IMG/VR virus record: IMGVR_UViG_3300018048_000063 | Location: 1 to 23,416 of that record | Direction: 5' to 3' (one strand) | DNA: 23,416 nt | Source: a virus | In this document: one piece after another, positions 1-20,246 of the stretch | Position numbering within the stretch: the stretch's first letter is position 1 | Layout: each line of letters begins with the position of its first letter | The notes under the pieces: model-generated | Told to the model about the DNA's origin: nothing | The model's input: the letters and a program-made list of their open reading frames with translations, nothing else | The model's database searches: none | Position numbers and translations under genes: made by a program

Positions 1-663
1 AAAACTCCGAATAAAATTTGTGTAGAAATGGGATGGGGTAAGGATCATGTGGGTAAAAAGGCCGCTAAGATCGACTATGCACAAAACTGTACATCTAATC
101 TTATACACACTCATGGTTACACAGGGTTTGCCTGGGACGCACAGTTTCAACACGTTATACCACCAAAAGTAAAGTTTTCACAAGAATTTTTAAGACCTCA
201 AAATGTACCCAACTATATTAAAGTTATTAACGAACTTAAACCTGACTTTTATAGTCTAGATATAGACAGTTTTGATTATGAAATCATGACGGGTATGTTA
301 TATCATGGCTTTGCTCCCAAGGCGATGGTATTAGAATTTAATATTAGATGGGGTTGGGATATAGTTCATTCGATGCCTTACTATGATAAAGGAAAATACG
401 AAAAGACCAGTTTGTTTCATGGGGTAAGTTATCGCAAGTATAGAAATTTATTAGAAAAGAAAGGATATAAGTTCTTTACGTTAGATACAAGAGGTATCAA
501 TATGTTCTTTTATAATCCAAACGATTTAGATGAATCTAAATTACCTGATGAAAGACATATTACTATTGAAACAGCACCTGGAAGAATAAAAAGCAAACAA
601 GAGATAAACGAGGAAATTAAAAAACATCCTTTTTGGAATTCAAGGCTCGAAGAAATACAATGA
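1..663 (+). CDS. FkbM-like SAM-dependent methyltransferase, 5'-truncated by window edge
   Basis: The reading frame is open from base 1, and residues before the first ATG (base 28) read KTPNKICVEMGWG. This resembles the glycine-rich SAM-binding motif I (hydrophobic-E-x-G), so the true start lies upstream and about 220 residues are visible. A central FYSLDIDSFDYEI motif matches the LDID-G/S-x-DY signature seen in FkbM-type methyltransferases, which O-methylate sugars or other small hydroxyl acceptors. The gene ends in an ATGA overlap with the next gene, a glycosyltransferase-like protein, and it is the first visible member of a glycan-modification cluster. The acceptor cannot be deduced. Family membership is fairly secure from the two motifs; sugar O-methylation is inferred from the neighbours. 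Confidence 0.7.
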   Translation, partial: KTPNKICVEMGWGKDHVGKKAAKIDYAQNCTSNLIHTHGYTGFAWDAQFQHVIPPKVKFSQEFLRPQNVPNYIKVINELKPDFYSLDIDSFDYEIMTGMLYHGFAPKAMVLEFNIRWGWDIVHSMPYYDKGKYEKTSLFHGVSYRKYRNLLEKKGYKFFTLDTRGINMFFYNPNDLDESKLPDERHITIETAPGRIKSKQEINEEIKKHPFWNSRLEEIQ

Positions 664-1448
664 TTTGTTTAAGCAAAAACGGAACTGACGAATACGTCAA
701 TATGTTTGCCGAAGGAGCAGGTATAACCCCTACTTCGGATAAGGAGTTTGTATACGAAAAATCAAATGAAGCAATACTATTACGTGGCATCCTTAAACAC
801 AAATTAATGAAACAATGTTGGGAAAATAAGCGTGACTTCTATTATATGGATAGTGGTTACTTGGGCAACTATAAGTCACCTATTAATCCTAATGGGTGGA
901 AATGGTTTCATAGAATTGTCAAAAATGATTTACAACACAATGCTATTGTAGATCGTCCTAGTGATCGTTGGGAAAAATTAAAATATAAGATTCCAAATTG
1001 GAAAAAGAATGGTCGTAATATATTAGTTGTTATGCCAAGTGAAAAGCCTGCAAAGTTTTATAACATAGATATGACACAATGGCGAGAAGATGTTGTTAAC
1101 ACAATTAAGCAACACACGGATCGACCTATTGTTATTAGAGAAAAAGCAAGTAGACCAGAACGTATTGTAAAAACAATTTATGAAGAATTAGACAACGCTC
1201 ATGCAGTAGTTACACTACAAAGCATTGCGGCAACAGAAGCAGTTCTATATGGTGTACCTGCTTTTGGATTGGCTCCAAATGCGGCCAGTCCTGTATCATC
1301 TAATAATTTATCAGAAATCGAAACACCATTTTATCCAGATGAACAATTAGTATACAAATGGGCCTGCCATTTAGCATATGGTCAATTTCACATTGACGAA
1401 CTAAGAAGTGGTACAGCGTATAAAATACTAGTACAAGAGAGGCAATAA
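660..1448 (+). CDS. Glycosyltransferase-like protein, paralog A of a three-copy family
   Basis: A 262-residue protein starting at the ATG of an ATGA overlap; an upstream TTG at 633 would only extend it into the previous gene. The C-terminal half carries RNILVVMPS, a QWREDVVNTIKQHTDRPIVIR segment and AHAVVTLQSIAATEAVLYGVPAF, followed by an SEIETPFYPD element. This is the pattern of the C-terminal Rossmann half of GT-B / capsule-polysaccharide transferases, where a nucleotide-sugar pocket is followed by a conserved small-residue helix. The same ordered blocks recur in the proteins at 2383 and 5511, so the three are paralogs. It is the most diverged: its linker reads LKYKIPNW where the others have LELKPW. 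It sits between a methyltransferase and a pyruvyl transferase. Donor and acceptor are unknown. Confidence 0.6.
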   Translation: MICLSKNGTDEYVNMFAEGAGITPTSDKEFVYEKSNEAILLRGILKHKLMKQCWENKRDFYYMDSGYLGNYKSPINPNGWKWFHRIVKNDLQHNAIVDRPSDRWEKLKYKIPNWKKNGRNILVVMPSEKPAKFYNIDMTQWREDVVNTIKQHTDRPIVIREKASRPERIVKTIYEELDNAHAVVTLQSIAATEAVLYGVPAFGLAPNAASPVSSNNLSEIETPFYPDEQLVYKWACHLAYGQFHIDELRSGTAYKILVQERQ

Positions 1449-2383
1449 TGAAACCAAAGTTTGTAGTAATACATAGAACGGATATAAACAATGTAGGAGA
1501 TATGTCTTCTAATCCGTTGCGTTATTTTTTAAAACCAGAAGAGTATATGGTGTTAGATATTGACACCCTAGGAGGAAAACCATATCCGGACGATGTCCCT
1601 ATTATTGTAGGTGGTGGCGGCCTAATCGGAAATGAATTTTTTGGTGAAAATATTGCATTGGCTTTAGAGCATCCTGATGCTGTGCAAATTAATAATCTTT
1701 GGCAACATCGATGGGAACTAGTTAATCTTAAGTATAAAGATATGCACGTAGAATTTCACACCAAACTTAAAGACATGGTCAACGATGCATTAACAAAAAT
1801 TGATAAACACAAAACCCCTAAAGTAATTTGGGGTGTTGGTCATAACATACAAAAGTTTGGTCAGGACGATGTTCCTAATTTAAAATATCCTAAATTTATG
1901 AAGGATTTTAACATAGTCGGAATAAGAGATTTTGTTCCTCATCAACCATATGAATTTGTTCCTTGTGCAAGTTGTATGGATCCTTCTCTAAATAAAACAT
2001 ATCCTATTAAAAATGATATAGTGATTATTGAACACAAAAAACAGTTGCTTAAAGGTGCTGAGTTTGGTGCACTATCTATTCCTAGATTTGTTAATAGTGG
2101 TGATAATTTAGAACAAATGATTGAATTAATAGGATCAGCAAATATTGTTATATCAAACAGTTATCATGCAATATACTGGGCAACACTACTAAAGAAAAAA
2201 ACAATTTGTGTTGGTGCTTGGAGCAGTAAATTTTTTACACTTAAACACAAACCACATTACATAAAATCTATTGGTAAAGAACTTGAAGAAGCAATTGACG
2301 AAGCAAAAATTTATGAAACTGCTTTAGAAGAATCAGTTATGGCTAATCGAAGAATGTGGGATAGAGTAAGGGCATTAGTATAA
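1448..2383 (+). CDS. Polysaccharide pyruvyl transferase family protein
   Basis: A 311-residue protein that starts in a TAATG overlap with the previous gene, preceded by a GAGAGG Shine-Dalgarno. Family signatures are in order: NVGD at residues 15-18, a GGGGLIG loop at 55-61, VGIRD at about 157-161, CASCMDPSL at about 173-181, and SNSYHAIYWA at about 236-245. Members of the PF04230 family move a pyruvyl group from phosphoenolpyruvate to a sugar, making an acidic ketal on exopolysaccharide or lipopolysaccharide; some CsaB-like members act on cell-wall polymers. Length is normal for the family. Its place among glycosyltransferases and methyltransferases supports a role in decorating a surface glycan. 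The exact sugar is not deducible. Confidence 0.8.
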   Translation: MKPKFVVIHRTDINNVGDMSSNPLRYFLKPEEYMVLDIDTLGGKPYPDDVPIIVGGGGLIGNEFFGENIALALEHPDAVQINNLWQHRWELVNLKYKDMHVEFHTKLKDMVNDALTKIDKHKTPKVIWGVGHNIQKFGQDDVPNLKYPKFMKDFNIVGIRDFVPHQPYEFVPCASCMDPSLNKTYPIKNDIVIIEHKKQLLKGAEFGALSIPRFVNSGDNLEQMIELIGSANIVISNSYHAIYWATLLKKKTICVGAWSSKFFTLKHKPHYIKSIGKELEEAIDEAKIYETALEESVMANRRMWDRVRALV

Positions 2384-3309
2384 TGAAGGTATGTAGTTTT
2401 TTAGCAGGTATTCCTCCTGGAAATAAAAATCCAAATAAGCCGGTGATGTTAAAAGGAATTATCGAAGGTGTTAATGCTGTAGGAGATCAAGGCATTGTTG
2501 TTGAACAAAAACAATATGTCGATTGTGATGTAGCAGTTATACAAGGCTTTGTGCATGAGCACGGCAAGTCAGCACCTCATCTAGCATTTAGAAAAGAAGT
2601 ACATCAACGGAATACAGTAAAACCAAAACGTTGCATTATTATTGATAGTAATATGTTTTCATATCATACCGGCAGATTAGGCGATAGTGGTATGTGTCGT
2701 TATAGTTTTGATGGAGTATTTCCAACCACAGGTGATTATTGCAGTGATGGTGTTGGCAGTGAGCATTGGGAAAGATTACAAAAGAATTATGGATTAGAAT
2801 TAAAGCCGTGGACCAAAAGTGGTGAACATATTTTAATTTGTTTACAGCGTAATGGCGGTTGGAGCATGATGGGAGAAGATGTAACAGATTGGCTAAGAAA
2901 CACTATTGCTACATTAAAACAATACACCCAAAGAAAAATTGTTATTCGATGTCATCCAGGCGACGGAAAGTTTAGAAATTATATTGATAACATTAAAAAA
3001 ATAGATCCTAATTTAATTATTAGCGATCACACCACAAGACATATTATGGACGATTTAACAGGAGCATGGGCAATGATAGTTAAAAATTCAAGTCCAAGTG
3101 TTGCGGCAGTAATGAATGGTATTCCTGTATTTGTTACAGATCCTATTAACTGTCAAGCAGGTCCTGTTGCGAATACCGACATATCAAAGATCGAAACACC
3201 AAGTTATCCAGAAAGAGAAGAATGGCTGTGGAAAATTTGTGCAAGTCATTGGAACATTCAAGAACTTAAAAACGGAGAATGTTGGAAACACATGAGGAAG
3301 TATGTATGA
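2383..3309 (+). CDS. Glycosyltransferase-like protein, paralog B
   Basis: A 308-residue protein starting in a TAATG overlap. The N-terminal part has CDVAVIQGF. The C-terminal part has LELKPW, GEHILICLQRN, WLRNTIATLKQYTQRKIVIRCHPGD, then AWAMIVKNSSPSVAAVMNGIPVF and SKIETPSYP. These blocks align in order with the proteins at 660 and 5511, marking a three-member phage-borne family with a GT-B-like C-terminal half. The H in RCHPGD sits where many nucleotide-sugar-using transferases carry a conserved basic residue. It shares a 22-base identical stretch with the gene at 5511, coding GLELKPW. The last bases overlap the following GT-A gene by ATGA. Function as a transferase is inferred from fold-like motifs and context. 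Confidence 0.6.
   Translation: MKVCSFLAGIPPGNKNPNKPVMLKGIIEGVNAVGDQGIVVEQKQYVDCDVAVIQGFVHEHGKSAPHLAFRKEVHQRNTVKPKRCIIIDSNMFSYHTGRLGDSGMCRYSFDGVFPTTGDYCSDGVGSEHWERLQKNYGLELKPWTKSGEHILICLQRNGGWSMMGEDVTDWLRNTIATLKQYTQRKIVIRCHPGDGKFRNYIDNIKKIDPNLIISDHTTRHIMDDLTGAWAMIVKNSSPSVAAVMNGIPVFVTDPINCQAGPVANTDISKIETPSYPEREEWLWKICASHWNIQELKNGECWKHMRKYV
2790..2811 (+). repeat. 22-base exact repeat, copy 1 (other copy 5831-5852)
   Basis: The 22 bases are identical to 5831-5852 and encode the same peptide, GLELKPW, in two paralogous glycosyltransferase-like genes about 3 kb apart. Flanking sequence differs at once on the right side. Identity at synonymous positions suggests recent duplication or gene conversion. 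Confidence 0.8.
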
Positions 3310-4031
3310 TAAGATTTATATCAAGTCAAAGTCACAATCAGTTTATAGAGCACGGTCGATTTATGATCGAAAGTTTTCAAAAAGCATTTCCTAATCAAAC
3401 ACTAAATTTATATACTGAAGATTTTATTAAAGTTAAAATTACAAACAAGTATCAAGATGTAAATATTATAGATTTAAAATCAACAGGTGACATTGAATAT
3501 CAAAAGTTTCAAGAAGATAAAACTATTTTAAACCCTAATAGAACAAAACGATTTGCACACAAGGCGTTTGCTGTAATGGATATGATGAAACAGCATAACG
3601 ACGGTTTATTAGTTTGGATTGACTGTGATGTATTATTTAAAAAACCTGTTCCTCTTAAATGGATAGAGGATCTAGTAGGTGATAATCTAAGTGCTCATTT
3701 AGGACTGATATGGAAAGGCATATATGGTGCTGAGACAGGGTTTTTTATTTTAAATCTAGCACACCCTTTAAAAGATAAGTTTTTAGAAGAATATAGACAA
3801 AGTTATGTAAACAGAGACTTCGAAGGGTTACGTAAAAGTTTTGATAACGATATATATGGTAGAACTATTAAACGTGTACAAGCACCTTACAATGAACTAA
3901 GCACTAATTTAGATTTAGTAAGTCCGTTTAATAGAAGTTGTTTAAAAGAATATATGTATCATTACAAAGCACATCATAAAGAGCGTATGCTTAATACTGG
4001 TGCTGAAGTTGTTGCTAAACAGCAGATCTAA
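3306..4031 (+). CDS. GT-A type glycosyltransferase with DxD motif
   Basis: A 241-residue protein. The start is the ATG of the ATGA overlap at 3306; an upstream TTG frame extension lies inside the previous gene. A DCD triplet at residues 106-108, inside GLLVWIDCDVLF, is the metal and nucleotide-sugar binding DxD of GT-A transferases. It is preceded by FAHKAFAVMDMM and followed by an ETGFFILNL segment that resembles the acceptor-side strand. The protein at 5462 (minus) shares the same layout, with RFCHKVYAIFDA, WMDADTV and GWYSMNL, so the two are paralogs. Its 3' end overlaps the oppositely oriented methyltransferase gene by 17 bases, with no terminator visible between them. The sugar donor is unknown. 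Confidence 0.72.
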   Translation: MIRFISSQSHNQFIEHGRFMIESFQKAFPNQTLNLYTEDFIKVKITNKYQDVNIIDLKSTGDIEYQKFQEDKTILNPNRTKRFAHKAFAVMDMMKQHNDGLLVWIDCDVLFKKPVPLKWIEDLVGDNLSAHLGLIWKGIYGAETGFFILNLAHPLKDKFLEEYRQSYVNRDFEGLRKSFDNDIYGRTIKRVQAPYNELSTNLDLVSPFNRSCLKEYMYHYKAHHKERMLNTGAEVVAKQQI

Positions 4032-4650
4032 AAATACAAGGTTGTACGTGTTGTACTCTTTGTAACTCGCCTGTAATTTTATTTCTTTTTAATGGATGCG
4101 GAAGAAAACTGTAAACAGTTTTATTTTCTGCTTTAATTTTTTCTGGATTAAATTCTACTTCAGGAATATTATTTGCACTAGTATATTCATCAAAGTATTT
4201 TTTTACTGGGTCAATCTGATAATCATCAAATACAATTACACGGCTCTTTTCTAACATACCATGATCGTGTTTGACAGATTCGTAACTATGACCTCCATCG
4301 ATATACACAAAATCAAATACACTTTCTTTTAGTGTATCTTGTGTCCAGCCTTTAATCAATTCAAACTCAAATTTGTTAGGATACTTGTTTTTATAAATTG
4401 ATATACGACTTGTGGCACCTGCAAGTGTTCCCGGACCTTTACCGTTAACTTCTTGTATGTCTGTTTGATTGTTTGCAAATTCAAAAGCATCATAACCTGT
4501 GTATTTTAATTTTGGAACTCCGACTACTTCAAGTAAATGACCAATAAATTGTCCTGAAGACTTGCCTTCGTGTGTTCCTATTTCACAAATATTTGTTGGC
4601 TTGTATGCATCTAAAATTTGTTTAAATTGGGCGAATAATATTTCTTTCAT
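4015..4650 (-). CDS. Class I SAM-dependent methyltransferase
   Basis: A 211-residue protein read from 4650. The start is the ATG overlapping the stop of the upstream minus-strand gene (ATGA), preferred to the ATG 15 bases earlier. Motif I is EIGTHEGKS at residues 23-31. A second signature FVYIDGGHSYESVKHD at 114-129 is the post-motif-II aspartate/histidine block typical of Methyltransf_24-like enzymes, often found beside sugar-biosynthesis genes. A YTGYDAFEF segment carries the acidic residue expected to bind the SAM ribose. It forms a two-gene minus-strand unit with the GT-A gene upstream, so it may methylate the sugar that enzyme adds. The substrate is inferred only from context. Confidence 0.75.
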   Translation of the reverse strand: MKEILFAQFKQILDAYKPTNICEIGTHEGKSSGQFIGHLLEVVGVPKLKYTGYDAFEFANNQTDIQEVNGKGPGTLAGATSRISIYKNKYPNKFEFELIKGWTQDTLKESVFDFVYIDGGHSYESVKHDHGMLEKSRVIVFDDYQIDPVKKYFDEYTSANNIPEVEFNPEKIKAENKTVYSFLPHPLKRNKITGELQRVQHVQPCIFRSAV

Positions 4651-5462
4651 GATAGTTTTTTCCAATAATCTTCTGTACGTTGAACTTTTAAATCTTTTCT
4701 TTCTGAAATACCTTTTGCTTTTCTACCGCCTTTTAAGTGATCGATATAAGCACCTAGGTCACTATTAATAATAGGATGACCTTCACCACTAAAGCCAGGT
4801 CTACTTAAATTGTGTTCTTTCCATCCAGGTATGCGTCTAAACTCTTTTACAATTTCATAGAATACAAAACTGTCATGCCATTCTTTCATTGTAAAAATAC
4901 CTTCTTCGGCATGATCATATACCCATTGAAATCTACTTAAAAATCGTTTTGTCATATCGTCACGCAAGTTCATAGAATACCAACCGCATTCGGGCCATTT
5001 AGGCTCGCGGCCAAAATAACTGATGTGTGTATCTTCAGGAATGAACTTTTCTAAAAAGTCCGTTGCCATCGGAGAATGACATACTGTATCTGCATCCATC
5101 CAAATTAACACATCAGCCTCTACTGATTTCGCGGCATCAAAAATTGCGTAGACTTTATGACAAAAACGAATAGCGTCCCACTTAAAATTCTTATTAGAAT
5201 CTAAGCGATGTTTAGGATTATCTAGACCGTTTGCTTTAGGAACATTTTTCCATTTTGTTTTAAACTGTGCTATAAATCCTGTGCCCATTAAATCTCGTAT
5301 TACTACATTATCTTTAGTTTTGGTCGGAGAGCAATCTTCAGCGTATACGTATAGTTTTACGTCACTGGGCCAATTTTTTTCAAATCCATTGATCATTTTT
5401 TGACCGTATTGTCTTAATCCTTCTTCGTGAAAGGTAGTAACAACCGCAAATTTTCTAGGCAT
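4647..5462 (-). CDS. GT-A type glycosyltransferase, paralog of the gene at 3306
   Basis: A 271-residue protein read from 5462, where MPRKFAVVT begins 39 codons inside a longer open frame. This start is chosen because TGGAG lies just upstream and the extra N-terminus would cross the divergent gene. DAD at residues 123-125 in VLIWMDADTVC is the DxD motif, RFCHKVYAIFDAA precedes it and ECGWYSMNL follows it, all in register with the + strand paralog. The N-terminal FAVVTTFHEEGL is the usual first strand of such transferases. It is the first gene of a two-gene minus unit, followed by a methyltransferase with ATGA overlap. The opposite orientation of the two paralogs suggests separate acquisition or an inversion. 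Confidence 0.72.
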   Translation of the reverse strand: MPRKFAVVTTFHEEGLRQYGQKMINGFEKNWPSDVKLYVYAEDCSPTKTKDNVVIRDLMGTGFIAQFKTKWKNVPKANGLDNPKHRLDSNKNFKWDAIRFCHKVYAIFDAAKSVEADVLIWMDADTVCHSPMATDFLEKFIPEDTHISYFGREPKWPECGWYSMNLRDDMTKRFLSRFQWVYDHAEEGIFTMKEWHDSFVFYEIVKEFRRIPGWKEHNLSRPGFSGEGHPIINSDLGAYIDHLKGGRKAKGISERKDLKVQRTEDYWKKLS

Positions 5463-5510
5463 TAATAAACTCCATAAATAATAATGTATGCAGTTATTTA
5501 GTGGAGTACA
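5463..5510. promoter_or_regulatory. Divergent intergenic region with late-promoter-like motifs on both strands
   Basis: These 48 bases separate the minus-strand GT-A gene from the plus-strand glycosyltransferase-like gene. On the plus strand CATAAATA (5474-5481) and on the minus strand CTAAATAA resemble the TATAAATA/CTAAATA late promoter boxes of T4-like marine phages. Both genes have GGAG Shine-Dalgarno sequences (TGGAG on minus, GTGGAG on plus). No good sigma70 -35/-10 pair was found. Late expression is an inference. Confidence 0.35.
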
Positions 5511-6368
5511 ATGAAGGTAAAAATATTTTCTGAACACGGTGCTATGAACAGTCAGCCGGTGTTTGATGCATTTAGACAATCTCTAAAGCACTATGATATA
5601 ACAGAATCAGAGGACTATGATTTTGCTGTTATATGGAGTGTGCTATGGAACGGTCGAATGGCCAAAAACAAACCTGTGTGGGAATCCTGTGTTAAAAATA
5701 ATAAACCTGTTGTGGTTTTAGAAGTTGGCGGAATAAAAAGAGGCACAACTTGGAAAGTGGGAATCAATGGTATTAATAGAGAAGCATACTTTGGGGAACC
5801 TGGAAATGCAGATGATCGTGCTAAACTATTTGGATTAGAATTAAAGCCGTGGCAAACAGGTAGAGATATTATTATATGCTGTCAAAATCCTTACAGTCAT
5901 CAATGGCGTAAAATGCCTTCGCCGGGTACCTGGGTATATGATACAATTGAAACTATTAGAAAATATACTGCTAGGCCTATAATAATTAGAGACCATCCTA
6001 GGGCAAGACTTGAATACATTGAAATAGAATTTACTAATGTGTCTAGACAGGCTCCGAGAAAAATAGATGGTACTTATGATGACTTTGACTTTGATTTTCA
6101 TAATGCTCATGCTGTTGTTAATTGGAGCAGTAATCCTGCCACACAGGCTGTTATAGGAGGAGTTCCGGTATTTGTAGGACCCGAAAGTTTGGCTTGGGAC
6201 GTTGGTAATCATGACTTAACAACTATAAATGATCCTATCAAACCAGACAGAACACAGTGGTTAAATGACCTAGCATACACAGAATGGACAGTTGAAGAAA
6301 TTCAAAATGGTAAACCTTTAAGTAGAATATACAACAAATTAGAACAATTAGTTCTTGCTCAAAACTAA
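5511..6368 (+). CDS. Glycosyltransferase-like protein, paralog C
   Basis: A 285-residue protein with an ATG 5 bases after a GTGGAG Shine-Dalgarno. The ordered blocks are DFAVIWSVLW, LELKPW, RDIIICCQNP, WVYDTIETIRKYTARPIIIRDHPR, AHAVVNWSSNPATQAVIGGVPVF, and a C-terminal TEWTVEEIQNG. They match the proteins at 660 and 2383, completing a three-copy family. The C-terminal half resembles a GT-B nucleotide-sugar-binding domain; the RDHPR block parallels RCHPGD of paralog B. It is the last gene of the glycan island. A promoter for the next operon begins inside its final codons. No catalytic residue can be assigned with confidence. Confidence 0.6.
   Translation: MKVKIFSEHGAMNSQPVFDAFRQSLKHYDITESEDYDFAVIWSVLWNGRMAKNKPVWESCVKNNKPVVVLEVGGIKRGTTWKVGINGINREAYFGEPGNADDRAKLFGLELKPWQTGRDIIICCQNPYSHQWRKMPSPGTWVYDTIETIRKYTARPIIIRDHPRARLEYIEIEFTNVSRQAPRKIDGTYDDFDFDFHNAHAVVNWSSNPATQAVIGGVPVFVGPESLAWDVGNHDLTTINDPIKPDRTQWLNDLAYTEWTVEEIQNGKPLSRIYNKLEQLVLAQN
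5831..5852 (+). repeat. 22-base exact repeat, copy 2 (other copy 2790-2811)
   Basis: Second copy of the 22-base identical stretch coding GLELKPW, here inside paralog C. See copy 1. Confidence 0.8.
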
Positions 6369-6383
6369 AAAGAGTGTTATAAT
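6355..6383 (+). promoter_or_regulatory. Sigma70-like promoter giving a predicted leaderless mRNA
   Basis: TTGCTC (6355-6360), a 17-base spacer, then TATAAT (6378-6383) preceded by TGT (extended -10). The start codon A is at 6390, exactly 7 bases after the end of the -10, which is the usual transcription start. There is no Shine-Dalgarno. The -35 is only a half match, but the -10 is a perfect consensus. Confidence 0.65.
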
Positions 6384-6389: not shown

Positions 6390-6719
6390 ATGAGTTATAA
6401 TCCGCAATACCAAGATATCGAGGAATGCTTACTAGTATTATCTGGTGAATCATTTATCTGGCCAAACGAAATACGAGATGTTGCATTACAGCCATACGAC
6501 CAATCCATGATTCTTAGTCTAGGAAGGCAACTTGCTAATCATTTACCGTTTACTGAAAAGCAAAGTGTAATTGGTATTAGGCTGGTTAAAAAATACGAAC
6601 CATTGCTTAAAAAAATAGGCCTCGATACTAAAACAATTTTATCCGGACCTGTATTTAGATGGCCGTTAGAACTATCGATAAAACTAAAAGTTTATACATT
6701 GATGGTGAAAGCATTGTAA
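6390..6719 (+). CDS. N-terminal piece of a helicase-associated phage protein (unrecognised family)
   Basis: A 109-residue protein beginning at the predicted leaderless ATG. The visible pattern is an all-helical module: IEECLLVLSGESFIWPNEIRD, a PFTEKQSVIGIRLVKKYEPLLKK block, and a terminal GPVFRWP. After FRWP the frame runs on for about 17 residues of weak character (LELSIKL), while the overlapping next frame continues as VRTIDKTKSLYIDGES. That continuation reads more like a protein core, so the gene may be the first half of one ancestral protein split by a frame change near 6665. It leads the operon that contains UvsW. No enzyme motif is visible. Function is unknown; association with helicase is from position only. 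Confidence 0.6.
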   Translation: MSYNPQYQDIEECLLVLSGESFIWPNEIRDVALQPYDQSMILSLGRQLANHLPFTEKQSVIGIRLVKKYEPLLKKIGLDTKTILSGPVFRWPLELSIKLKVYTLMVKAL

Positions 6720-7567
6720 TCAAAAGTCCTTTTATACCTAACCTAGTTAATACAATTAAGAAAAGAAAAAACCCTAGTTGGAAAGCAGGCACCTATAATC
6801 CAGAATCCAAGGAATGGGAATTTGATTATAATGAATCTAATGTGGATTTTTTAATGAATGCTGTTAAGGGTATGAATTTTAAGATAGATAGTAAGATACA
6901 AGAAGACTTTGAAAAAATTAAATTAGTAAAAGAGAATGCTCTAAAAGATTTAGATATGCTTAAACTAGTTGACGGAAAGTTAACATATCGAAATACAATC
7001 ATCGATGAAACTGACTTAAGAAAATCATTTGTTATTGCAAAATCTCTTGGATGTACTGTTTATGATGACAATTTGGTTAAATTAATACCAAATAAAGATC
7101 AGTTTGATAAAATTTTATATAGCGATTCGAAAAATCATTACGTAAATAAAAGCAAGTTTAATAGAAGTAAATTTAATAATATTATTTCTTCTAGTAGAAA
7201 AATTTTTATTATGTTGGCTAGTAACAATCCATCGGATATGGAAGATTGGGTTGACACATTGTTAGAAGGTGGCATTAACGCAACCGACATTTGTGTTTGT
7301 TTTAGATACAAGAATAACAACGAAGCAAATGAGTTTATTAAAAATAAACAGGTTAATACATATGATCCAACAAAGAAAGTATTCATACTTTCTGAAAGGA
7401 TTCCAAAACCAATTGTAAAAGATATGGTAAGGCCTGATATGGTTATTGTTGATTTACCTACAACACCTAGTCATTATAAAACTAAGATTTATCTTGAAAA
7501 TAAATCAACAGTAGTTTATTATTGTGCTACTAAACCAAGCGGAGTAGATAATTGTGCCGACGTGTAA
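6659..7567 (+). CDS. HARP-like / helicase-associated protein next to UvsW, no ATPase motif
   Basis: A 302-residue protein starting at ATG 6659, inside the previous gene (61-base overlap), with no clear Shine-Dalgarno, so its start may be coupled or produced by frameshifting. Residues about 12-55 (LYIDGESIVIKSPF, then IKKRKNPSWKAG, then SKEWEF) resemble the short beta-rich HARP-type module found in front of some annealing helicases: strand, helix, W-containing strand. The C-terminal half has RKIFIMLASNN, KKVFILSERIP and PDMVIVDLP, suggestive of Rossmann strands, but no Walker A or B is visible. It overlaps UvsW by 14 bases. It may be a cofactor or degraded helicase. The HARP likeness is a visual judgement and uncertain. 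Confidence 0.5.
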   Translation: MAVRTIDKTKSLYIDGESIVIKSPFIPNLVNTIKKRKNPSWKAGTYNPESKEWEFDYNESNVDFLMNAVKGMNFKIDSKIQEDFEKIKLVKENALKDLDMLKLVDGKLTYRNTIIDETDLRKSFVIAKSLGCTVYDDNLVKLIPNKDQFDKILYSDSKNHYVNKSKFNRSKFNNIISSSRKIFIMLASNNPSDMEDWVDTLLEGGINATDICVCFRYKNNNEANEFIKNKQVNTYDPTKKVFILSERIPKPIVKDMVRPDMVIVDLPTTPSHYKTKIYLENKSTVVYYCATKPSGVDNCADV

Positions 7568-9014
7568 ACTAATAATCAAAGACGAAGTAAATGTAAAATT
7601 TGAAGGATTAGATCTTCAAATGCGTAAACATTTAACTAATAAATTTAAATATGATATTCCTTATGCACGGTACTTGCCAGCATACAAACTAGGACGATGG
7701 GACGGCACTGTAAGTTTCTTTGGACTAGGTGGAACAACATATGTTAGTATGCTTGAAGAAGCGTTGGTGGCACTTGAAGAACGCGGTTGGTATGTTGAAG
7801 TAGAAGATTTGAGAGCACCTACACAACTAACTTTCGATCATATAGATGAAAATTATTGGAAAGACAAAGGTGTACATTGGCCTAAGGGACATCCTGAAGC
7901 AGGTAAGCCTATTATCTTAAGAGACTATCAAGTTGAAGTTATTAACAATTTTTTAAGTAATCCACAAGCACTACAAGAAGTTGCCACAGGTGCAGGTAAA
8001 ACTATTATAACAGCAACATTATCAAACTTATGCGAACCTTATGGACGTAGCCTTGTTATTGTTCCTAATAAGTCGCTTGTAACACAAACAGAAGAAGATT
8101 ATGTAAACTGCGGTCTTGATGTAGGTGTGTACTTTGGTGATAGAAAAGAACTAGGACATACGCATACTATTTGTACTTGGCAAAGTCTAAACATACTAAG
8201 CAAAAAAACTAAAAATAACGAAGCGGCGATTACATTCCAAGAAGCAATGGAAGACATCAAATGTATTATGGTCGATGAAGTACATCAAGCAAAAGCAGAT
8301 GTGCTTAAACAGTTGCTTACACAGAACTTTGCAAACGTTCCTATTCGTTGGGGACTAACAGGCACTATTCCAAAAGAACAGTTTGAGTTTCAAGGTATTA
8401 GAGCAGGACTTGGAGAAGTAATTAACAACATCAGTGCAAGTGATCTACAAGCCAAAGGAGTACTTGCTAACTGTCATGTGAATGTTATTCAAACAGAAGA
8501 CACACAAGAATATAAAACGTATCAAGAAGAATTAAAATATCTTACAACCAACGAAAAAAGAATAACTTGGATTGCAAAATTGATTTCTAAGATTACCGAA
8601 AATGGTAATACTTTAATACTTGTTGATAGGATTTCTGCAGGAAATATGTTACAATCTAAATTAGAAAATAGTGTTTTTATTAGTGGTGAAACTAAAAGTA
8701 CTGAAAGAAAAGAACATTATGACGAAGTAAAAACTATGAATGATAAAATTATTATTGCAACATATGGTGTAGCCGCTGTGGGTATTAATATTCCACGTAT
8801 CTTTAATTTAGTTTTATTAGAACCAGGCAAATCGTTTGTTAGAGTTATTCAAAGTATTGGTAGAGGCATTAGAAAGGCAGAAGACAAAGATCATGTTCAA
8901 ATCTGGGATATCACCAGCAGGTGTAAGTTTGCGAAGAGGCATCTTACACAAAGAAAAAAATTTTATAAGGAAGCAAACTATCCTTTCACAATTGAAAGAA
9001 TAGATATAGGATAG
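7554..9014 (+). CDS. uvsW: UvsW-type SF2 DNA helicase
   Basis: A 486-residue protein starting at GTG 7554, in overlap with the previous gene; no ATG lies nearby in frame. The N-terminal module (residues 1-85, with YARYLPAYKLGRWDGTVSFF) is the DNA-binding domain typical of T4 UvsW. The SF2 motifs follow: RDYQ at 123-126, Walker A TGAGKT at 145-150, DEVH at 241-244, LTGT at 268-271, and motif VI QSIGRGIRK at about 433-441. UvsW unwinds branched DNA and R-loops and drives fork regression, which switches T4 replication from origin-dependent to recombination-dependent mode. Length is close to the 500 residues of T4 UvsW. It ends 7 bases before the next gene, which has AGGAG. Confidence 0.93.
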   Translation: MPTCKLIIKDEVNVKFEGLDLQMRKHLTNKFKYDIPYARYLPAYKLGRWDGTVSFFGLGGTTYVSMLEEALVALEERGWYVEVEDLRAPTQLTFDHIDENYWKDKGVHWPKGHPEAGKPIILRDYQVEVINNFLSNPQALQEVATGAGKTIITATLSNLCEPYGRSLVIVPNKSLVTQTEEDYVNCGLDVGVYFGDRKELGHTHTICTWQSLNILSKKTKNNEAAITFQEAMEDIKCIMVDEVHQAKADVLKQLLTQNFANVPIRWGLTGTIPKEQFEFQGIRAGLGEVINNISASDLQAKGVLANCHVNVIQTEDTQEYKTYQEELKYLTTNEKRITWIAKLISKITENGNTLILVDRISAGNMLQSKLENSVFISGETKSTERKEHYDEVKTMNDKIIIATYGVAAVGINIPRIFNLVLLEPGKSFVRVIQSIGRGIRKAEDKDHVQIWDITSRCKFAKRHLTQRKKFYKEANYPFTIERIDIG

Positions 9015-9525: not shown

Positions 9526-10250
9526 GTTTTTGGTTTAAAAAGAAACCCATTGTGTTAGAATGCTTTACAGATAATGCAACTGTACACGAATTATTTCCTA
9601 TTGCTAAAACTAGAAAGTTTACACCTGATTGGTTTAAATCTATGCCTATGACACACAAGAGTCATAAAGAAATGAGTCAAAACTTATCAATTGAAGAACC
9701 TAGTATTAGAATGTGTCCTGCTATAAATGATCACTTTTCTTTTGGTGCAATTATGCCGGCATTTGCAGAATTAGTTATTCAACGAGATGCTGTTACAGGA
9801 AAAGCAGAATGCATGGCCGCGGCCGCAACTTGGGGACAACCTGTGCAACATCATGCAGATGATTTATCAAACAAAGCAGAATTATTGCATTGGAAATTTG
9901 GAACACCTTGGTTATTTAGAGAAAGCACAGGTTTAAAATTTTATTGGACACAGCCTAGTTGGCATCAACGTAATCCTCTGAACCATTGGATCACACCTGG
10001 GTTTATAGAATTCAAGTATCAGCATTCTGTGTTGGTTAATATGATGATTCCAAAAGGAAAAAGAATTCACTGGCAAGCAGGAGATCCTGTTGTGCAATTG
10101 ATACCTTTGATCGAAGATCAAAATAGACTAGAAGTTAAATGTCATCTTGTCACTAGTGCTGAGATGGAAAAGTTAACTACTTACAAACCGTTTTTTCTAA
10201 ATTCATATATGAAAACACGGAAACTAATAAAAGATATGGAGAAAGGCTAA
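9519..10250 (+). CDS. Conserved hypothetical phage protein (beta-rich, unassigned)
   Basis: A 243-residue protein. ATG 9519 is chosen over ATG 9507 because GGAG lies 6 bases before it. The sequence begins MVSFWFKKKPIVLECFTD and contains FTPDWFKSMP, IRMCPAINDHFSFGAIMPAFAELVI, and a C-terminal IPKGKRIHWQAGDPVVQLIPLI, a layout of tryptophan/proline-rich strands with no known active-site motif. The segment PTWF-like, then CPAINDHF, then GxIMP resembles a family of marine-phage hypotheticals in which a WY/WF-K motif precedes a CP motif. It overlaps its neighbours at both ends (TAATG to the cupin), implying translational coupling. Function is unknown. Confidence 0.55.
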   Translation: MVSFWFKKKPIVLECFTDNATVHELFPIAKTRKFTPDWFKSMPMTHKSHKEMSQNLSIEEPSIRMCPAINDHFSFGAIMPAFAELVIQRDAVTGKAECMAAAATWGQPVQHHADDLSNKAELLHWKFGTPWLFRESTGLKFYWTQPSWHQRNPLNHWITPGFIEFKYQHSVLVNMMIPKGKRIHWQAGDPVVQLIPLIEDQNRLEVKCHLVTSAEMEKLTTYKPFFLNSYMKTRKLIKDMEKG

Positions 10251-10609
10251 TGACAATGAAAGCAGGAAAGATATGGGGTCAGACAGAACTTATTCATGCT
10301 AACGGTGTTCTTGAATTTCATAGAATTGAATTCAAGAAAGGGTATAAGTGTTCTGAACATGAACACAAATATAAATGGAACGGATTCTTTGTTGAGTCGG
10401 GCAAGATGCTTGTCCGTGTTTGGCAAGATGATCAGGAAGGTTTAATTGACGAAACTATTCTTGGTCCGGGTGAATTTACTCAGGTTAAGCCGGGTAAGGT
10501 TCATCAATTTGAAGGCATCGAAGACGGTGTTGCCTTTGAACTATACTGGGCAGAATTCAATCATGATGATATTGTAAGACGCACAGTTGGTACTAAAATT
10601 AAAAATTAA
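10250..10609 (+). CDS. Cupin-fold protein
   Basis: A 119-residue single-domain cupin. Cupin motif 1 is GYKCSEHEHKYKWNGFFVESG at residues 31-51, with metal-ligand candidates H37 and H39 and a likely third ligand further on. Motif 2 is PGKVHQF with H85. Strands FELYWAEF close the barrel. An ATG six bases later (10256) is an alternative start; the first is taken because it forms a TAATG overlap. Cupins of this size include sugar-nucleotide isomerases and epimerases, small dioxygenases and regulators. Since sugar-nucleotide enzymes lie just downstream, a sugar-related role is plausible but not shown. Confidence 0.72.
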   Translation: MTMKAGKIWGQTELIHANGVLEFHRIEFKKGYKCSEHEHKYKWNGFFVESGKMLVRVWQDDQEGLIDETILGPGEFTQVKPGKVHQFEGIEDGVAFELYWAEFNHDDIVRRTVGTKIKN

Positions 10610-10619
10610 GGAGAACATT

Positions 10620-10790
10620 ATGTTTAAATGGCTTAAAAAAATCTTATGGCCAGGTAATTTACCATTAGAAGAACCTTTGGTATTAAACAAAATATATAAA
10701 GAAATAACGCCAGCAAAGGCAAAGAAAAAGCCAGCGGCCAAAAAAGCGGCACCAAAAAAACGAGGCCGCCCAGCAACCACAAAGAAGTAA
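10620..10790 (+). CDS. Small basic AT-hook protein
   Basis: A 56-residue protein with a good AAGGAG Shine-Dalgarno 6 bases before ATG 10620; an upstream in-frame start at 10587 lies inside the cupin gene. The N-terminal third (MFKWLKKILWPGN) is an amphipathic aromatic/basic segment. The last 25 residues are lysine/alanine/proline-rich, like histone H1 tails, and contain KKRGRPATTKK, whose RGRP core is the AT-hook that binds the minor groove of AT-rich DNA. In such an AT-rich genome it could compact phage DNA, act as a nucleoid-associated factor or modulate recombination beside UvsW. The DNA-binding call rests on the motif; the role is inferred. Confidence 0.72.
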   Translation: MFKWLKKILWPGNLPLEEPLVLNKIYKEITPAKAKKKPAAKKAAPKKRGRPATTKK

Positions 10791-10793
10791 ACG

Positions 10794-11402
10794 ATGTCAG
10801 CGGGTGCTATATCTATTATACCTAATCTTGTGTATAAGTTCCATTACGATGGAGATCTAGCACCTGCTGTATCGCGAGCAATTAAAGATACTTGTGTGCA
10901 TCCATCCAATGTTGGATCTATGAGAGGTGGTGGAAAGACAACTGCTAATCACACTAAAAACCCTCCACACACTTGGCAGGAATTAGAATCATTTTTTGAT
11001 TGGCTCGATCCACATATGAAAGAAGTATGGAACGAGTGGGATATGGCCGACTTACCTTTGATTCCAGAAAACAGTTGGACAAACATAGAAGCCAAAGGAG
11101 GCTTTGTTGTAGAACACGACCATTCACCCAGTCATATGAGCATGGCGATATACTTACAAAAGCCAGAAAATAGTGGAGATATAGAATTTAGAAATCCATT
11201 ACAAGTTAATTGGAGTCATATGCCAAGAAAGTTTATCGACGGTGATAAACACGATTATTTTCAGCCGGTAACTGCTACAACAGGAGACGTTGTTATCTTT
11301 CCGGGATGGTTATCACATAGAGTACAGCCTAATCAATATGACGACATTAGAGTTGTTATGAGCATAAACATTAATGGAGTCAGAATAAGGAATTCAGTAT
11401 GA
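10794..11402 (+). CDS. 2-oxoglutarate/Fe(II)-dependent oxygenase
   Basis: A 202-residue protein, 3 bases after the AT-hook gene. The double-stranded beta-helix signature is visible: EHDHSP at residues 107-112 with candidate iron ligands H108/D109 or H110, MSMAIYLQKPENSGDIEF as the next strands, then GDVVIFPGWLSHRVQPN with distal ligand H175, and R186 in DIRVVMSININ as the 2-oxoglutarate anchor. This matches the phage 'putative 2OG-Fe(II) oxygenase' type (TIGR02466-like), common in marine myoviruses. Substrate is unknown: hydroxylation of a protein, nucleotide or sugar are all possible. Overlap with the next gene is ATGA. Enzyme class is secure; biological role is not. Confidence 0.82.
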   Translation: MSAGAISIIPNLVYKFHYDGDLAPAVSRAIKDTCVHPSNVGSMRGGGKTTANHTKNPPHTWQELESFFDWLDPHMKEVWNEWDMADLPLIPENSWTNIEAKGGFVVEHDHSPSHMSMAIYLQKPENSGDIEFRNPLQVNWSHMPRKFIDGDKHDYFQPVTATTGDVVIFPGWLSHRVQPNQYDDIRVVMSININGVRIRNSV

Positions 11403-12370
11403 AATATTTAATAACAGGCACATCAGGATTTATAGGGTCACATCTAGTACAACGACTTGCAAGTAACCCAGAAAATTATATCTATTGTTTAGATAAAGAT
11501 CCATTGAATATTGTTATGCCGCACCTAATGTCCTTAGACAATGTCGAAGAAATAATACACAACCTTAGATTTCCGGTTCCACTATTGCCTGATGTAGATT
11601 ATGTAATTCATTTAGCGGCATTTAATGGAACAAAACATTTTTATTCAAAAGCATATGATGTAATTAAAGACAATATATTAACTACTATCAACTTAATAGA
11701 TTGTTATAGAAATAGAGATATAAAAAGATTTATATATTCAGGTACTCCGGAAAGTACAGTGGTGTCGACTGAATATTTTGATTACGGATTGCCAACAGAT
11801 GAAAATGCTCCTGTGGGAGTTATTGATGTTAAAAATAAAAGATGGAGTTATGCAAATTCAAAAGCACTAGGTGAGCAGGCCGTTATAGCAAGTGACTTGC
11901 CATACACTATTATTAGATATAATAATGTATATGGTCCAAGGCAGATTGATCATTTTATTAGTGAATTTTATGATAGGGTGGTTAGTAAAGAATACAGTTT
12001 GTACGGACACGAAAATACTAGAACATTCATTTATATTGATGATGCAATTGACGCCACAGAGTTATTAATTAATAATCAAGGTGCAATAAATGATATTTTT
12101 AATATTGGTGGAGAAAAAGAAACCACTATATTAGAAGTTGCAAAAACTATTTTAAAACTTATGAATAAAGAAGATGTTGAATTAGAGTTACACCCTGCAC
12201 CAACTGGAAGCACCATGCGTAGATGGCCTGATATATCTAAACTTAAAAATCTAACAGGATTTGAACAAAAAGTTAGTTTAGAAGAAGGTCTAATTAAAAC
12301 ATTAAAATTAGAAGGGTATGAAACAATGCGAGTACTAGACGAACTAGACAAACAAGGAGATAATGTATGA
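11399..12370 (+). CDS. NAD-dependent sugar-nucleotide epimerase/dehydratase (extended SDR)
   Basis: A 323-residue protein starting in an ATGA overlap. It has the SDR nucleotide-binding motif GTSGFIG at residues 7-13, DVDYVIHLAAFNG at about 65-77, and the catalytic YANSK with Y151 and K155. It also has RYNNVYGPRQ in the substrate-binding region and RTFIYIDDAIDAT near the C-terminus, which is typical of UDP-glucose 4-epimerase, UDP-glucuronate decarboxylase and dTDP-glucose dehydratase relatives. Length is normal. The next gene is a UDP-glucose dehydrogenase-like protein, so UDP-glucuronate may be its substrate (epimerase or decarboxylase). Fold and cofactor are certain; the specific reaction is inference. 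Confidence 0.85.
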   Translation: MKYLITGTSGFIGSHLVQRLASNPENYIYCLDKDPLNIVMPHLMSLDNVEEIIHNLRFPVPLLPDVDYVIHLAAFNGTKHFYSKAYDVIKDNILTTINLIDCYRNRDIKRFIYSGTPESTVVSTEYFDYGLPTDENAPVGVIDVKNKRWSYANSKALGEQAVIASDLPYTIIRYNNVYGPRQIDHFISEFYDRVVSKEYSLYGHENTRTFIYIDDAIDATELLINNQGAINDIFNIGGEKETTILEVAKTILKLMNKEDVELELHPAPTGSTMRRWPDISKLKNLTGFEQKVSLEEGLIKTLKLEGYETMRVLDELDKQGDNV

Positions 12371-13161
12371 ACTTAGGTATAGTGGGTATAGGAGCAGTAG
12401 GTACAGCAAATCTAAAAGGATTTGAATATCTTAGTCATACTGTTAAAACCCATGATATAAAATTAAAAACAACAATTCATGATGTAGCAGATTGTGAAAT
12501 AGTTTTTGTTTGTGTTCCTACTCCTAGCACAAAAGAAGGTGAATGTGATACAAGCATTATAGAAAGTGTTATTACAGAACTTAATGATGTACACTATAAA
12601 GGAATTGTTGCTATTAGGTCAACCGTGGTTCCTGGATTTACGCAAAGTATGATAGACAAATTTAAAAATCTTACAATTTGTTTTGTTCCTGAATTTTTAA
12701 GAGAACGTTGTGCTGAAGATGATTTTATTAATAATCACAAACTACTTGCAATAGGTACACACGATATTTGGGTGTATAGAAAACTTGTACAAGCACACGG
12801 AGACTTGCCGTTACACACAGAACACCTTACGCCAAACGAAGCAGAAGTTTTAAAATATTTTAACAATGTGTATGCAAGTTTACGTGTTACTTTTGCAAAT
12901 GTAATGTACGAGATTTGTGAAAAACTTGATTGTGATTATACAACAATTAAAAATGCTTACATCAAAACAGGTAAAGCAACAGATATGTATTTGGATGTTA
13001 ATCCTAGCCTGAGAGGATACGGCGGTATGTGTTTACCAAAAGACACAAAAGCCTTAGCACAGTTAATGAAGAAATTAAACATCGATTTGAATCTTATCGA
13101 AACTATTGATAAAGACAATTCCAAATTTAAGAAAACGGTGTTTAATGGAATGCGTGACTAG
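12367..13161 (+). CDS. Short UDP-glucose/GDP-mannose dehydrogenase
   Basis: A 264-residue protein with AAGGAG before an ATG that overlaps the previous stop. The NAD-binding loop is GIGAVG at 7-12. RSTVVPG at about 84-90, PEFLRE at about 108-113, K163 in VLKYFNNVYAS, and GYGGMCLPKD with the catalytic cysteine at 222 and K225 are all present. Bacterial UDP-glucose 6-dehydrogenases are usually about 390-450 residues; this protein stops soon after the catalytic cysteine and lacks the C-terminal UDP-binding Rossmann domain. It could still be active with a rebuilt substrate site, or partner with another subunit. It would convert UDP-glucose to UDP-glucuronate for the neighbouring epimerase. It is the last gene before a new promoter. 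Confidence 0.82.
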   Translation: MNLGIVGIGAVGTANLKGFEYLSHTVKTHDIKLKTTIHDVADCEIVFVCVPTPSTKEGECDTSIIESVITELNDVHYKGIVAIRSTVVPGFTQSMIDKFKNLTICFVPEFLRERCAEDDFINNHKLLAIGTHDIWVYRKLVQAHGDLPLHTEHLTPNEAEVLKYFNNVYASLRVTFANVMYEICEKLDCDYTTIKNAYIKTGKATDMYLDVNPSLRGYGGMCLPKDTKALAQLMKKLNIDLNLIETIDKDNSKFKKTVFNGMRD

Positions 13162-19277: not shown

Positions 19278-20246
19278 ATGATTACTTGGGGTATTGTAGG
19301 TAACAGTCATGATGCCAGTCTTGCAGTGTTTAAAGATGATCAATTAAAGTTTGCGGCACTGTCAAAAGACTTTAGTGGTGTTGATCACGATCCTGATTTA
19401 AACTTCACTCTTATAAGTGTTGCTCGAGTAAATTACGGCGGCAACCCGGATCGTGTTGTATGGTATGAACGACCATTCTTAAAAACTCTTAGACAGTGGA
19501 GAGCAGGACAAGGATGGTTGTGGAAAGAAAATAATATTAAAAAATATCTAGCACGTTATGGTATTCATTGTCCTATAGAATATTCATTGCATCATCACAG
19601 TCATGCGGCCTATGGTTACTATACTAGTGGCTTTGATAATGCTTCTATACTTTGTATTGATAGCATTGGAGAGTTCCAAACATTAACAGTATGGCAAGGA
19701 GTGGGTGACGATCTACACTGTGTACACAAACAACGATATCCTGATAGTCTAGGATTGTTTTACAGTGCTATGACACAGCGTTGTGGATTAACAGCACAGC
19801 GTGATGAAGGTATGATGACTAGTCTTGCACGTGGTAAAAAGGACAACGAAGTTATCAGATTAATGATTAAAGATCTACTTTGGTTTGATGAATCTTTTGG
19901 ATACCCAACATTTAAATTTAAAGTAAATCTACACAAAGGCTGTGATTGGTGGAGACCAGAAATAAAAGATGTAGGAAAAATTGCATATGCCACACAATGG
20001 ATATTTGAACAGATTGTTGAAAGATTATCCAACAGTATGCTAGAGCAAATGCCAAGCAAAAACTTAATTGTTGTAGGCGGTTGTGCATTAAATGGAAAAG
20101 CAGTTAGACGCATATCTTATAAATGGAAAAATGTTTGGGTTCCTCCAAACCCAGGCGACCCCGGAAGTTGTATTGGAGCAGTTTTGGCAAGTACCAAAAA
20201 ACATATTGACTTTAATAAAAACTTGTGGTATAATAGTAGTATATGA
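19278..20246 (+). CDS. Short carbamoyltransferase (NodU/CmcH/TobZ-like, Kae1-like half only)
   Basis: A 322-residue protein with GAGG before its ATG. N-terminal WGIVGNSHDASLAVFKDDQL is the first-strand motif of the NodU/CmcH family. SLHHHSHAAYGYYTSGF holds the metal-binding histidines of the Kae1-like fold. ILCIDSIGE, RDEGMMTSLA and LIVVGGCALNGKAVRRI complete the ASKHA-type core, and VPPNPGDPGSCIGA ends it. NodU and TobZ are about 550-600 residues, with a second YrdC-like domain that makes carbamoyl-AMP; that half is absent. The enzyme would O-carbamoylate a sugar, provided carbamoyl-adenylate comes from elsewhere. It lies beside the SGNH hydrolase gene. A promoter for the next unit is in its last 40 bases. 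Confidence 0.82.
   Translation: MITWGIVGNSHDASLAVFKDDQLKFAALSKDFSGVDHDPDLNFTLISVARVNYGGNPDRVVWYERPFLKTLRQWRAGQGWLWKENNIKKYLARYGIHCPIEYSLHHHSHAAYGYYTSGFDNASILCIDSIGEFQTLTVWQGVGDDLHCVHKQRYPDSLGLFYSAMTQRCGLTAQRDEGMMTSLARGKKDNEVIRLMIKDLLWFDESFGYPTFKFKVNLHKGCDWWRPEIKDVGKIAYATQWIFEQIVERLSNSMLEQMPSKNLIVVGGCALNGKAVRRISYKWKNVWVPPNPGDPGSCIGAVLASTKKHIDFNKNLWYNSSI
20206..20234 (+). promoter_or_regulatory. Sigma70-like promoter for the helicase unit, near-leaderless
   Basis: TTGACT (20206-20211), 17-base spacer, perfect TATAAT (20229-20234) preceded by TGG (extended -10). The ATG of the small membrane protein is at 20243, about 9 bases after the -10, so the 5' leader would be about 2 bases. It lies inside the end of the carbamoyltransferase gene. 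Confidence 0.75.

Follow-up and report, generated by a model that had tools for sequence, protein, structure and literature searches.

A putative accessory glycan-synthesis island with KpsC-like glycosyltransferases and divergent late promoters in T4-like aquatic phages

What does a phage with T4-type replication genes build with a compact set of sugar-modifying enzymes, and onto which molecule? We addressed this question on the linear virus record IMGVR_UViG_3300018048_000063 (positions 1 to 23,416; hereafter the window, i.e. the whole stretch of 23,416 bases analysed), which encodes UvsW, a primase and a DnaB-type helicase. Its positions 1-6368 hold eight, mostly overlapping genes, i.e. one pyruvyl-transferase-like (PPT), two methyltransferase-like (MT1 and MT2) and five glycosyltransferase-like genes (GT1 to GT5) (Table 1). 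An earlier sequence-only reading had arrived at the same inventory, now confirmed by open reading frames (ORFs), profiles and fold, and had seen in it a phage-borne cassette for building glycans, which the gene content supports. We tentatively interpret the locus as part of an accessory glycan-synthesis unit of a T4-like aquatic phage lineage, with a host lipid-linked glycan as the favoured acceptor. The probable product is a tailored sugar chain, for which the host cell surface is the likeliest place and the virion a possible one.

The genes in the window are the 3' part of a larger island of about 10 kb and 13 genes, because contig L018, which is 99.6% identical to the window over 6,363 bases and continues upstream past its start, has five further island genes before MT1. 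The order in this contig is SSB, UvsX and UvsY, then genes for a GT25-like protein, a nucleotidyltransferase-cupin fusion (with a cupin of the mannose-6-phosphate-isomerase type), a GT8-like protein, another KpsC-like protein and another GT-A-like protein, then MT1. Adjacent genes at 1-6368 overlap by 1-31 bases; only the divergently oriented GT4 and GT5 are set apart, by 48 bases. The earlier view of one block at 1-6368 is thus right as to the gene set and needs amending as to its extent and layout, the island starting outside the window and being encoded on two strands.

To assess the distribution of the island, we assembled 103 loci with both flanks, i.e. 59 after removal of near-duplicates, and in all of them it lies between uvsY and an uncharacterised 392-aa gene adjoining uvsW. 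Only three loci with KpsC-like genes were without either flank, namely two short fragments and L101, which may be arranged differently. An independent sample was retrieved with the downstream flanking gene as query, in order to avoid the bias of island-gene queries; it comprised the best 80 of at least 590 matches, and the present/absent ratio that follows is only indicative. Among its 34 non-redundant loci with enough upstream sequence, a KpsC-like gene stands directly upstream of the flank in 12 and is absent in 22, and in all of these 22 empty sites uvsY adjoins the 392-aa gene (from a 29-base overlap to 98 bases apart). These counts support the variable locus that had been proposed and exclude the opposite case, a cluster fixed in relatives. 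The 392-aa gene was itself considered as a member of the island core and rejected, as the empty-site relatives show it to be a flank.

The 59 islands combine a core with variable extras. GT8-like, GT-A-like and KpsC-like genes were found in 59/59, the GT2 class likewise in 59/59 and the nucleotidyltransferase-cupin gene in 58/59; the figure for KpsC-like genes follows from the search itself, which used a KpsC-like query, unlike the figures for the other core genes. The extras each occur in 3 to 12 islands and include PPT (12 islands), MT2 (11), an epimerase (10), GT25 (9) and MT1 (4). Gene content diverges fast, some pairs differing by half (Jaccard index of about 0.5) at 95% UvsW identity. 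Hydrophobic segments are few: of 737 island genes, 8 have one marginal segment, and none encodes a polytopic membrane protein, so that the island proteins look soluble from their sequences. With several glycosyltransferase families and nucleotide-sugar enzymes that vary among relatives, the island has the composition of a phage lipopolysaccharide (LPS) or capsule modification cluster.

A further property of the island is its promoters. Late-like boxes had been noticed at 5463-5510 and taken to favour late action. In two large relatives, TAAATA is enriched about 10-30 fold in the bins 10-40 bases before ATGs and lies far above expectation at 15-50 bases, and 7 of the 10 box-bearing genes examined encode tail fibre, sheath, tube or virion proteins. 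Such a box precedes the last KpsC-like gene in 38/59 islands versus 3/186 for the other KpsC-like genes (Fisher 7e-26, uncorrected for relatedness); it also precedes the first of the leftward genes, either the GT-A gene (19/50) or a small upstream gene (17/17), and it is nearly absent before the remaining island genes and the flanks. The divergent late-promoter pair came with the island, because none of the 22 empty-site loci has a late box before the 392-aa flanking gene or uvsW. The same 0/22 led us to reject the idea that the box before GT5 serves uvsW, and a chance origin of the boxes in an AT-rich window was also rejected, as they are rarer than in shuffles and occupy the same place in relatives. 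The boxes are consequently real and island-borne, but they stand only before GT4-MT2 and GT5 in the window; no such late box precedes the rightward genes GT1-GT3, so that the late action proposed earlier applies to the former and leaves GT1-GT3 untimed.

Regarding the enzymes themselves, GT1, GT2 and GT5 are paralogs within one family, and GT3 and GT4 within another, whose relatives give weak matches to the Pfam models of glycosyltransferase families GT2 and GT8. A GT5 AlphaFold model built from 30 relatives (pLDDT 91) was compared with the Protein Data Bank (PDB) using Foldseek. The best 28 matches were all retaining transferases of 3-deoxy-D-manno-octulosonic acid (Kdo), i.e. KpsC, WbbB and KrkA (E 2e-7 to 1e-4, 11-14% identity), so that GT5 is predicted to share the GT-B-like fold of KpsC/WbbB that characterises the retaining beta-Kdo transferases (GT99/GT107/GT140). 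The sister class holding L018:5197-6120 was aligned to the KpsC family with hhalign (E 1.6e-7, probability 90%, controls <0.1%), which placed QKVGD over QTFND and HP over HP. For the KpsC-like family, the fold search and the KpsC alignment were informative, whereas searching PDB sequences by family profile yielded nothing of use.

Retaining Kdo transferases have QXXXD and (K/R)XHP elements in common (PMC10148158, PMC12887879), and the Asp of KpsC QTFND has been shown by experiment to be the nucleophile. QXXXD is missing from the window copies (QNPYS in GT5, QRNGG in GT2, PSEKP in GT1) and is found, among the L018 island paralogs, only in the upstream gene L018:5197-6120. The cytidine monophosphate (CMP)-binding motif (K/R)XHP is kept in GT5 (RDHP) and GT2 (RCHP) and lost in GT1. 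Motif classes were defined over 455 KpsC-like proteins, only 48 of which retain QXXXD. At the nucleophile position, the GT2 class has Gly in 108/108 (QxxxG) and the GT5 class has Ser in 87/87 (QxxxS), both with the HP motif kept; Q, D and HP are all gone from the GT1-type classes. The window KpsC-like proteins are members of this superfamily by fold and stand outside its catalytic definition.

The donor would be CMP-Kdo or a similar CMP-sugar. One relative encodes KdsA (E 4e-78 to KDO8P synthases versus 2e-11 to DAHP synthases) and KdsB (3e-22); KdsA occurs with uvsW in 35 loci (20 after removal of near-duplicates), and 16 of these 20 also have KdsB. Most KdsA loci with an island in range show only classes without QXXXD (x, G, S), which would be compatible with a use of CMP-Kdo by those classes too. 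A link between KdsA and the complete QXXXD class (p 0.003 in 22 loci) did not hold in the larger KdsA sample and was withdrawn.

Pyruvylation had been put forward as a theme of the block. PPT matches PF04230 at 6.6e-5 with 23.4 bits, below the curated 25.3, and over its C-terminal 42 aa only; all 14 homologs tested match this family at E <= 0.01 (best 1.7e-7). The PPT homologs examined have SYH where CsaB and Pvg1p have the R-x-H that contacts phosphoenolpyruvate (PEP; R306/H308 in CsaB), i.e. the His is kept and the Arg is replaced by Ser. The role of R306 derives from docking to PEP, with no mutant behind it. What stands of the proposal is thus a PF04230 relative with its His; pyruvylation itself is uncertain because of the Ser in place of the second PEP-contacting Arg, and the gene is accessory, being present in 12/59 islands. 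A PDB sequence search with the PPT family profile gave nothing useful, and a PPT structure model was discarded (alignment of three sequences, pLDDT 40). MT2 is a Methyltransf_24 protein (PF13578, 7e-9). MT1 has no direct Pfam match, and its family profile aligns with that of an FkbM methyltransferase family (82% in hhalign at E 1e-5, against about 1% or less for the controls).

On what, then, would the glycan be put? Neither a flippase (PF01943) nor an initiating sugar-phosphate transferase (PF02397), both expected of a Wzx/Wzy-type O-antigen locus, was found in 12 large records, which may be incomplete, although the controls were positive. Given soluble proteins and no flippase, initiating transferase or dCMP-hydroxymethylase-type gene, two acceptors are left, i.e. 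a host glycolipid at the cytoplasmic face and phage proteins; the enzyme families favour the former, late expression and the gene neighbourhood in Caulobacter phage CcrColossus the latter. We lean towards a host lipid-linked acceptor because neither a flippase nor an initiating transferase was seen and the enzymes belong to families known from LPS core and capsule. A short chain would then be built in the cytoplasm of the infected cell by soluble glycosyltransferases, among them several distant KpsC/WbbB relatives, and decorated by the products of variable genes (the methyltransferases and the PF04230 protein), the genes behind the divergent late-promoter pair acting late, alongside tail genes. 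The acceptor would be the LPS core or a capsule linker, the host would export the product, and cell-surface charge and phage recognition would be altered; enzymatic activities, acceptor and benefit to the phage are all presumed in this scheme. Some findings weigh against it. The window has no KdsA-KdsB pair, a cupin-oxygenase-epimerase-dehydrogenase block standing there instead, and GT1, GT2 and GT5 are without the nucleophile required by known members, so that donor and mechanism may differ; moreover, coupling to late tail genes fits decoration of the virion equally well. Glycosylation of virion proteins of the phage itself (in tail fibres, tube or capsid), with a conserved core chain and variable decorations, is in our view a real possibility, albeit somewhat less probable than a host acceptor. 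It would account for island-borne late promoters of the kind common to tail genes, for soluble enzymes only and for a core kept while extras vary; KpsC-like gp128 of CcrColossus lies in a glycan cluster after a tail protein and before lysis genes, and there are precedents in chlorovirus capsid and in mycobacteriophage capsid and tail tube glycosylation. Against this, KpsC-like, GT8, GT25 and KdsA-KdsB proteins belong to envelope-glycan enzyme families, the island sits among recombination genes with its rightward genes carrying no late box, and a glycosylated virion protein is not known for the lineage. A bolder version, which we consider unlikely, would have the Ser and Gly KpsC-like classes as new CMP-sugar transferases of changed mechanism, adding a variably capped glycan of Kdo type to the virion of the phage itself, with CMP-Kdo made by the phage in many relatives, as a counterpart of chlorovirus capsid glycosylation.

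Two other explanations concern the enzymes and their substrate. The window KpsC-like proteins might themselves transfer no sugar, being mostly degenerate or serving as structural partners of enzymes. The catalytic Asp is indeed missing in all three window copies, the KpsC D160A variant is inactive, and no adduct was reported for D160G/A/S crystals soaked with CMP-Kdo. The replacing residues are nevertheless invariant within the Ser and Gly classes, in which the CMP-binding motif is also kept, and this is conservation, not decay; we hence infer a changed chemistry or donor in the GT2 and GT5 classes and regard degeneracy as improbable. Modification of phage DNA against restriction, as in T4-like glucosylation, seems to us still less plausible. 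The island does lie amid DNA recombination genes, and phage glycosyltransferases often act on DNA according to a cited paper, but several paralogous transferases, methyltransferases and a pyruvyl transferase homolog exceed what base glucosylation needs. Moreover, PF00303 (thymidylate synthase/dCMP hydroxymethylase) was found in none of 22 relative records, which are fragments, with positive controls, and a search for Tet/JBP (PF12851), likewise in fragmentary records and without positive control, gave no match.

Phage glycan clusters with a proposed host-surface role are already known from cyanophages, jumbo phages, pelagimyophages and other marine phages, one genome of the latter having KdsA, NeuA and ManC. 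The LPS clusters of cyanophages (P-SSM2, S-SM2, S-SSM7) and the capsular polysaccharide clusters of jumbo phages, for which a change of the host surface has been proposed, likewise combine several glycosyltransferase families with nucleotide-sugar genes and are variable; in S-SSM7, the nucleotidyltransferase domain has a homolog at 59% identity. Unlike these clusters, located near hli03 or phoH, the present island is inserted between uvsY and the flank on the uvsW side, with KpsC-like paralogs in its core and divergent late promoters of its own. Pelagimyophages are also marine and T4-like, with O-chain-type glycosyltransferase, rfaE and UDP-glucose dehydrogenase genes in variable regions for which blocking of co-infection has been proposed, and Pelagibacter phage Mosig has distant KpsC-like homologs; these regions differ in being mainly a tail-fibre hypervariable region and small clusters. 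Moraphages (25 large aquatic phage genomes, 2025) share a T4-like core, UvsW and four core glycosyltransferase orthogroups, and a uvsY-uvsW island is not described in the accessible part of that source. At the protein level, the likeness to KpsC (GT107), WbbB (GT99) and KrkA (GT140) extends to the fold, (K/R)XHP and a conserved Ser motif, with QXXXD in one island class, whereas the window copies are single-module and deviate at QXXXD, with a Ser, with a Gly, or lacking both Q and D. PPT resembles CsaB/Pvg1p (PF04230) through a weak but family-wide profile match and the conserved His, and differs in the Ser two residues before it, where they have the PEP-docked Arg. The chlorovirus PBCV-1 also encodes a set making a conserved glycan core with variable parts; it differs in being a eukaryotic virus, and no close homology between the enzymes was seen, the resemblance amounting to one weak PDB match (E 0.3) of a PBCV-1 protein with the GT-A family.

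Within the literature searched, three features are new, namely the insertion next to uvsY, at a site that is empty in some relatives, a core of KpsC-like enzymes whose nucleophile is replaced, and the late-promoter pair carried by the island itself. Glycan genes of marine phages tend to be catalogued as dispersed auxiliary genes; in the present case they make up a well-delimited accessory unit that has a constant insertion site, relatives in which this site is empty, a core plus variable extras and late promoters of its own. The targets of phage glycan genes thereby become testable, by comparing island-bearing with island-free relatives. Through the KpsC-like classes, a small superfamily of enzymes with well-studied biochemistry gains viral members, the replacement of a key catalytic residue by an invariant one raises a direct question of enzyme mechanism, and CcrColossus gp128 provides a homolog in a cultivable phage.

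Table 1. Location and description of the features discussed (window coordinates)
Feature	Position	Strand	Remarks
MT1, FkbM-like methyltransferase	1..663	+	Accessory; cut by window start; complete gene is L018:6950-7696
GT1, KpsC-like paralog	633..1448	+	Probable start ATG 660; QXXXD and HP motif lost; paralogy with GT2/GT5
PPT, polysaccharide pyruvyl transferase-like (PF04230 relative)	1448..2383	+	Accessory; sub-threshold profile match, homologs match
GT2, KpsC-like core glycosyltransferase	2383..3309	+	Class QRxGG with HP motif
GT3, GT-A type glycosyltransferase (D-x-D)	3279..4031	+	GT4 paralog; alignment
MT2, Methyltransf_24 methyltransferase	4015..4665	-	Accessory; PF13578 7e-9
GT4, GT-A type core glycosyltransferase	4647..5462	-	ATG at 5462; alignment
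Late-promoter box ATAAATA, for GT5	5474..5480	+	Motif match, recurrence in relatives
Late-promoter box CTAAATA, for GT4-MT2	5495..5501	-	Spacing same in divergent relatives
GT5, KpsC-like core glycosyltransferase	5511..6368	+	Class QxxxS with R-x-H-P; final island gene; fold search
TATAAT near flanking-gene start	6378..6383	+	Similar TATAAT-like sequence in several empty-site relatives
Right flank, 392-aa gene	6390..7567	+	Outside island; adjoins uvsY in empty-site relatives
Right flank, UvsW helicase	7554..9014	+	Nearest proteins are from Sinorhizobium and Agrobacterium phages
Second sugar block: cupin, 2-oxoglutarate (2OG) oxygenase, NAD-sugar epimerase, UDP-glucose dehydrogenase-like	10250..13161	+	Relatives: KdsA-KdsB beside same cupin

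On the right flank, the TATAAT-like sequence is perhaps an early or middle promoter. The 392-aa gene that follows is split into two ORFs in the window owing to one missing T (a 1-base deletion; GGCCG-TTAG versus GGCCGTTTAG in contig L011, 99.8% identical), i.e. either an assembly error or a real frameshift. As for the second sugar block, its UDP-glucose dehydrogenase-like protein (12367-13161, 264 aa) matches profile positions 54-297 of 382, both ends missing, and has the same length in L004, with 94% identity. In a relative, the KdsA-KdsB pair (CMP-Kdo synthesis) is adjacent at L159:17449-18895, downstream of uvsW.

The nearest UvsW proteins are those of Sinorhizobium and Agrobacterium phages and, among isolates, KpsC-like homologs occur in Caulobacter and Pelagibacter phages, which hints at a possible alphaproteobacterial host. 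Matches in metagenome-assembled genomes (MAGs) of Neomarinimicrobiota and Euryarchaeota were examined as candidate host genes and rejected, two of the three loci (L035 and L036) carrying SSB, uvsX, uvsY and uvsW around the island; these two are phage contigs binned into a Neomarinimicrobiota MAG. A search with PF05159 in the MAG phylum gave weak, partial matches only. The Euryarchaeota MAG contig L037 carries a GT2 relative. Outside this lineage, podovirus ct7QV12 has an unannotated KpsC-like ORF with QVPQD and RPHP (L200:4790-5620), adjoining the terminase gene region.

Other genes were observed in relatives, i.e. a radical SAM protein with a zinc ribbon in one island (L135:12118-13251), an asparagine synthase-like gene in another (L012:2284-3612) and, in a further relative, a tryptophan halogenase gene with a late-promoter box (L023:3577-5193). 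In the window, a NodU-like carbamoyltransferase gene (19278-20246) stands between the primase and the DnaB-type helicase, a position kept in relatives.

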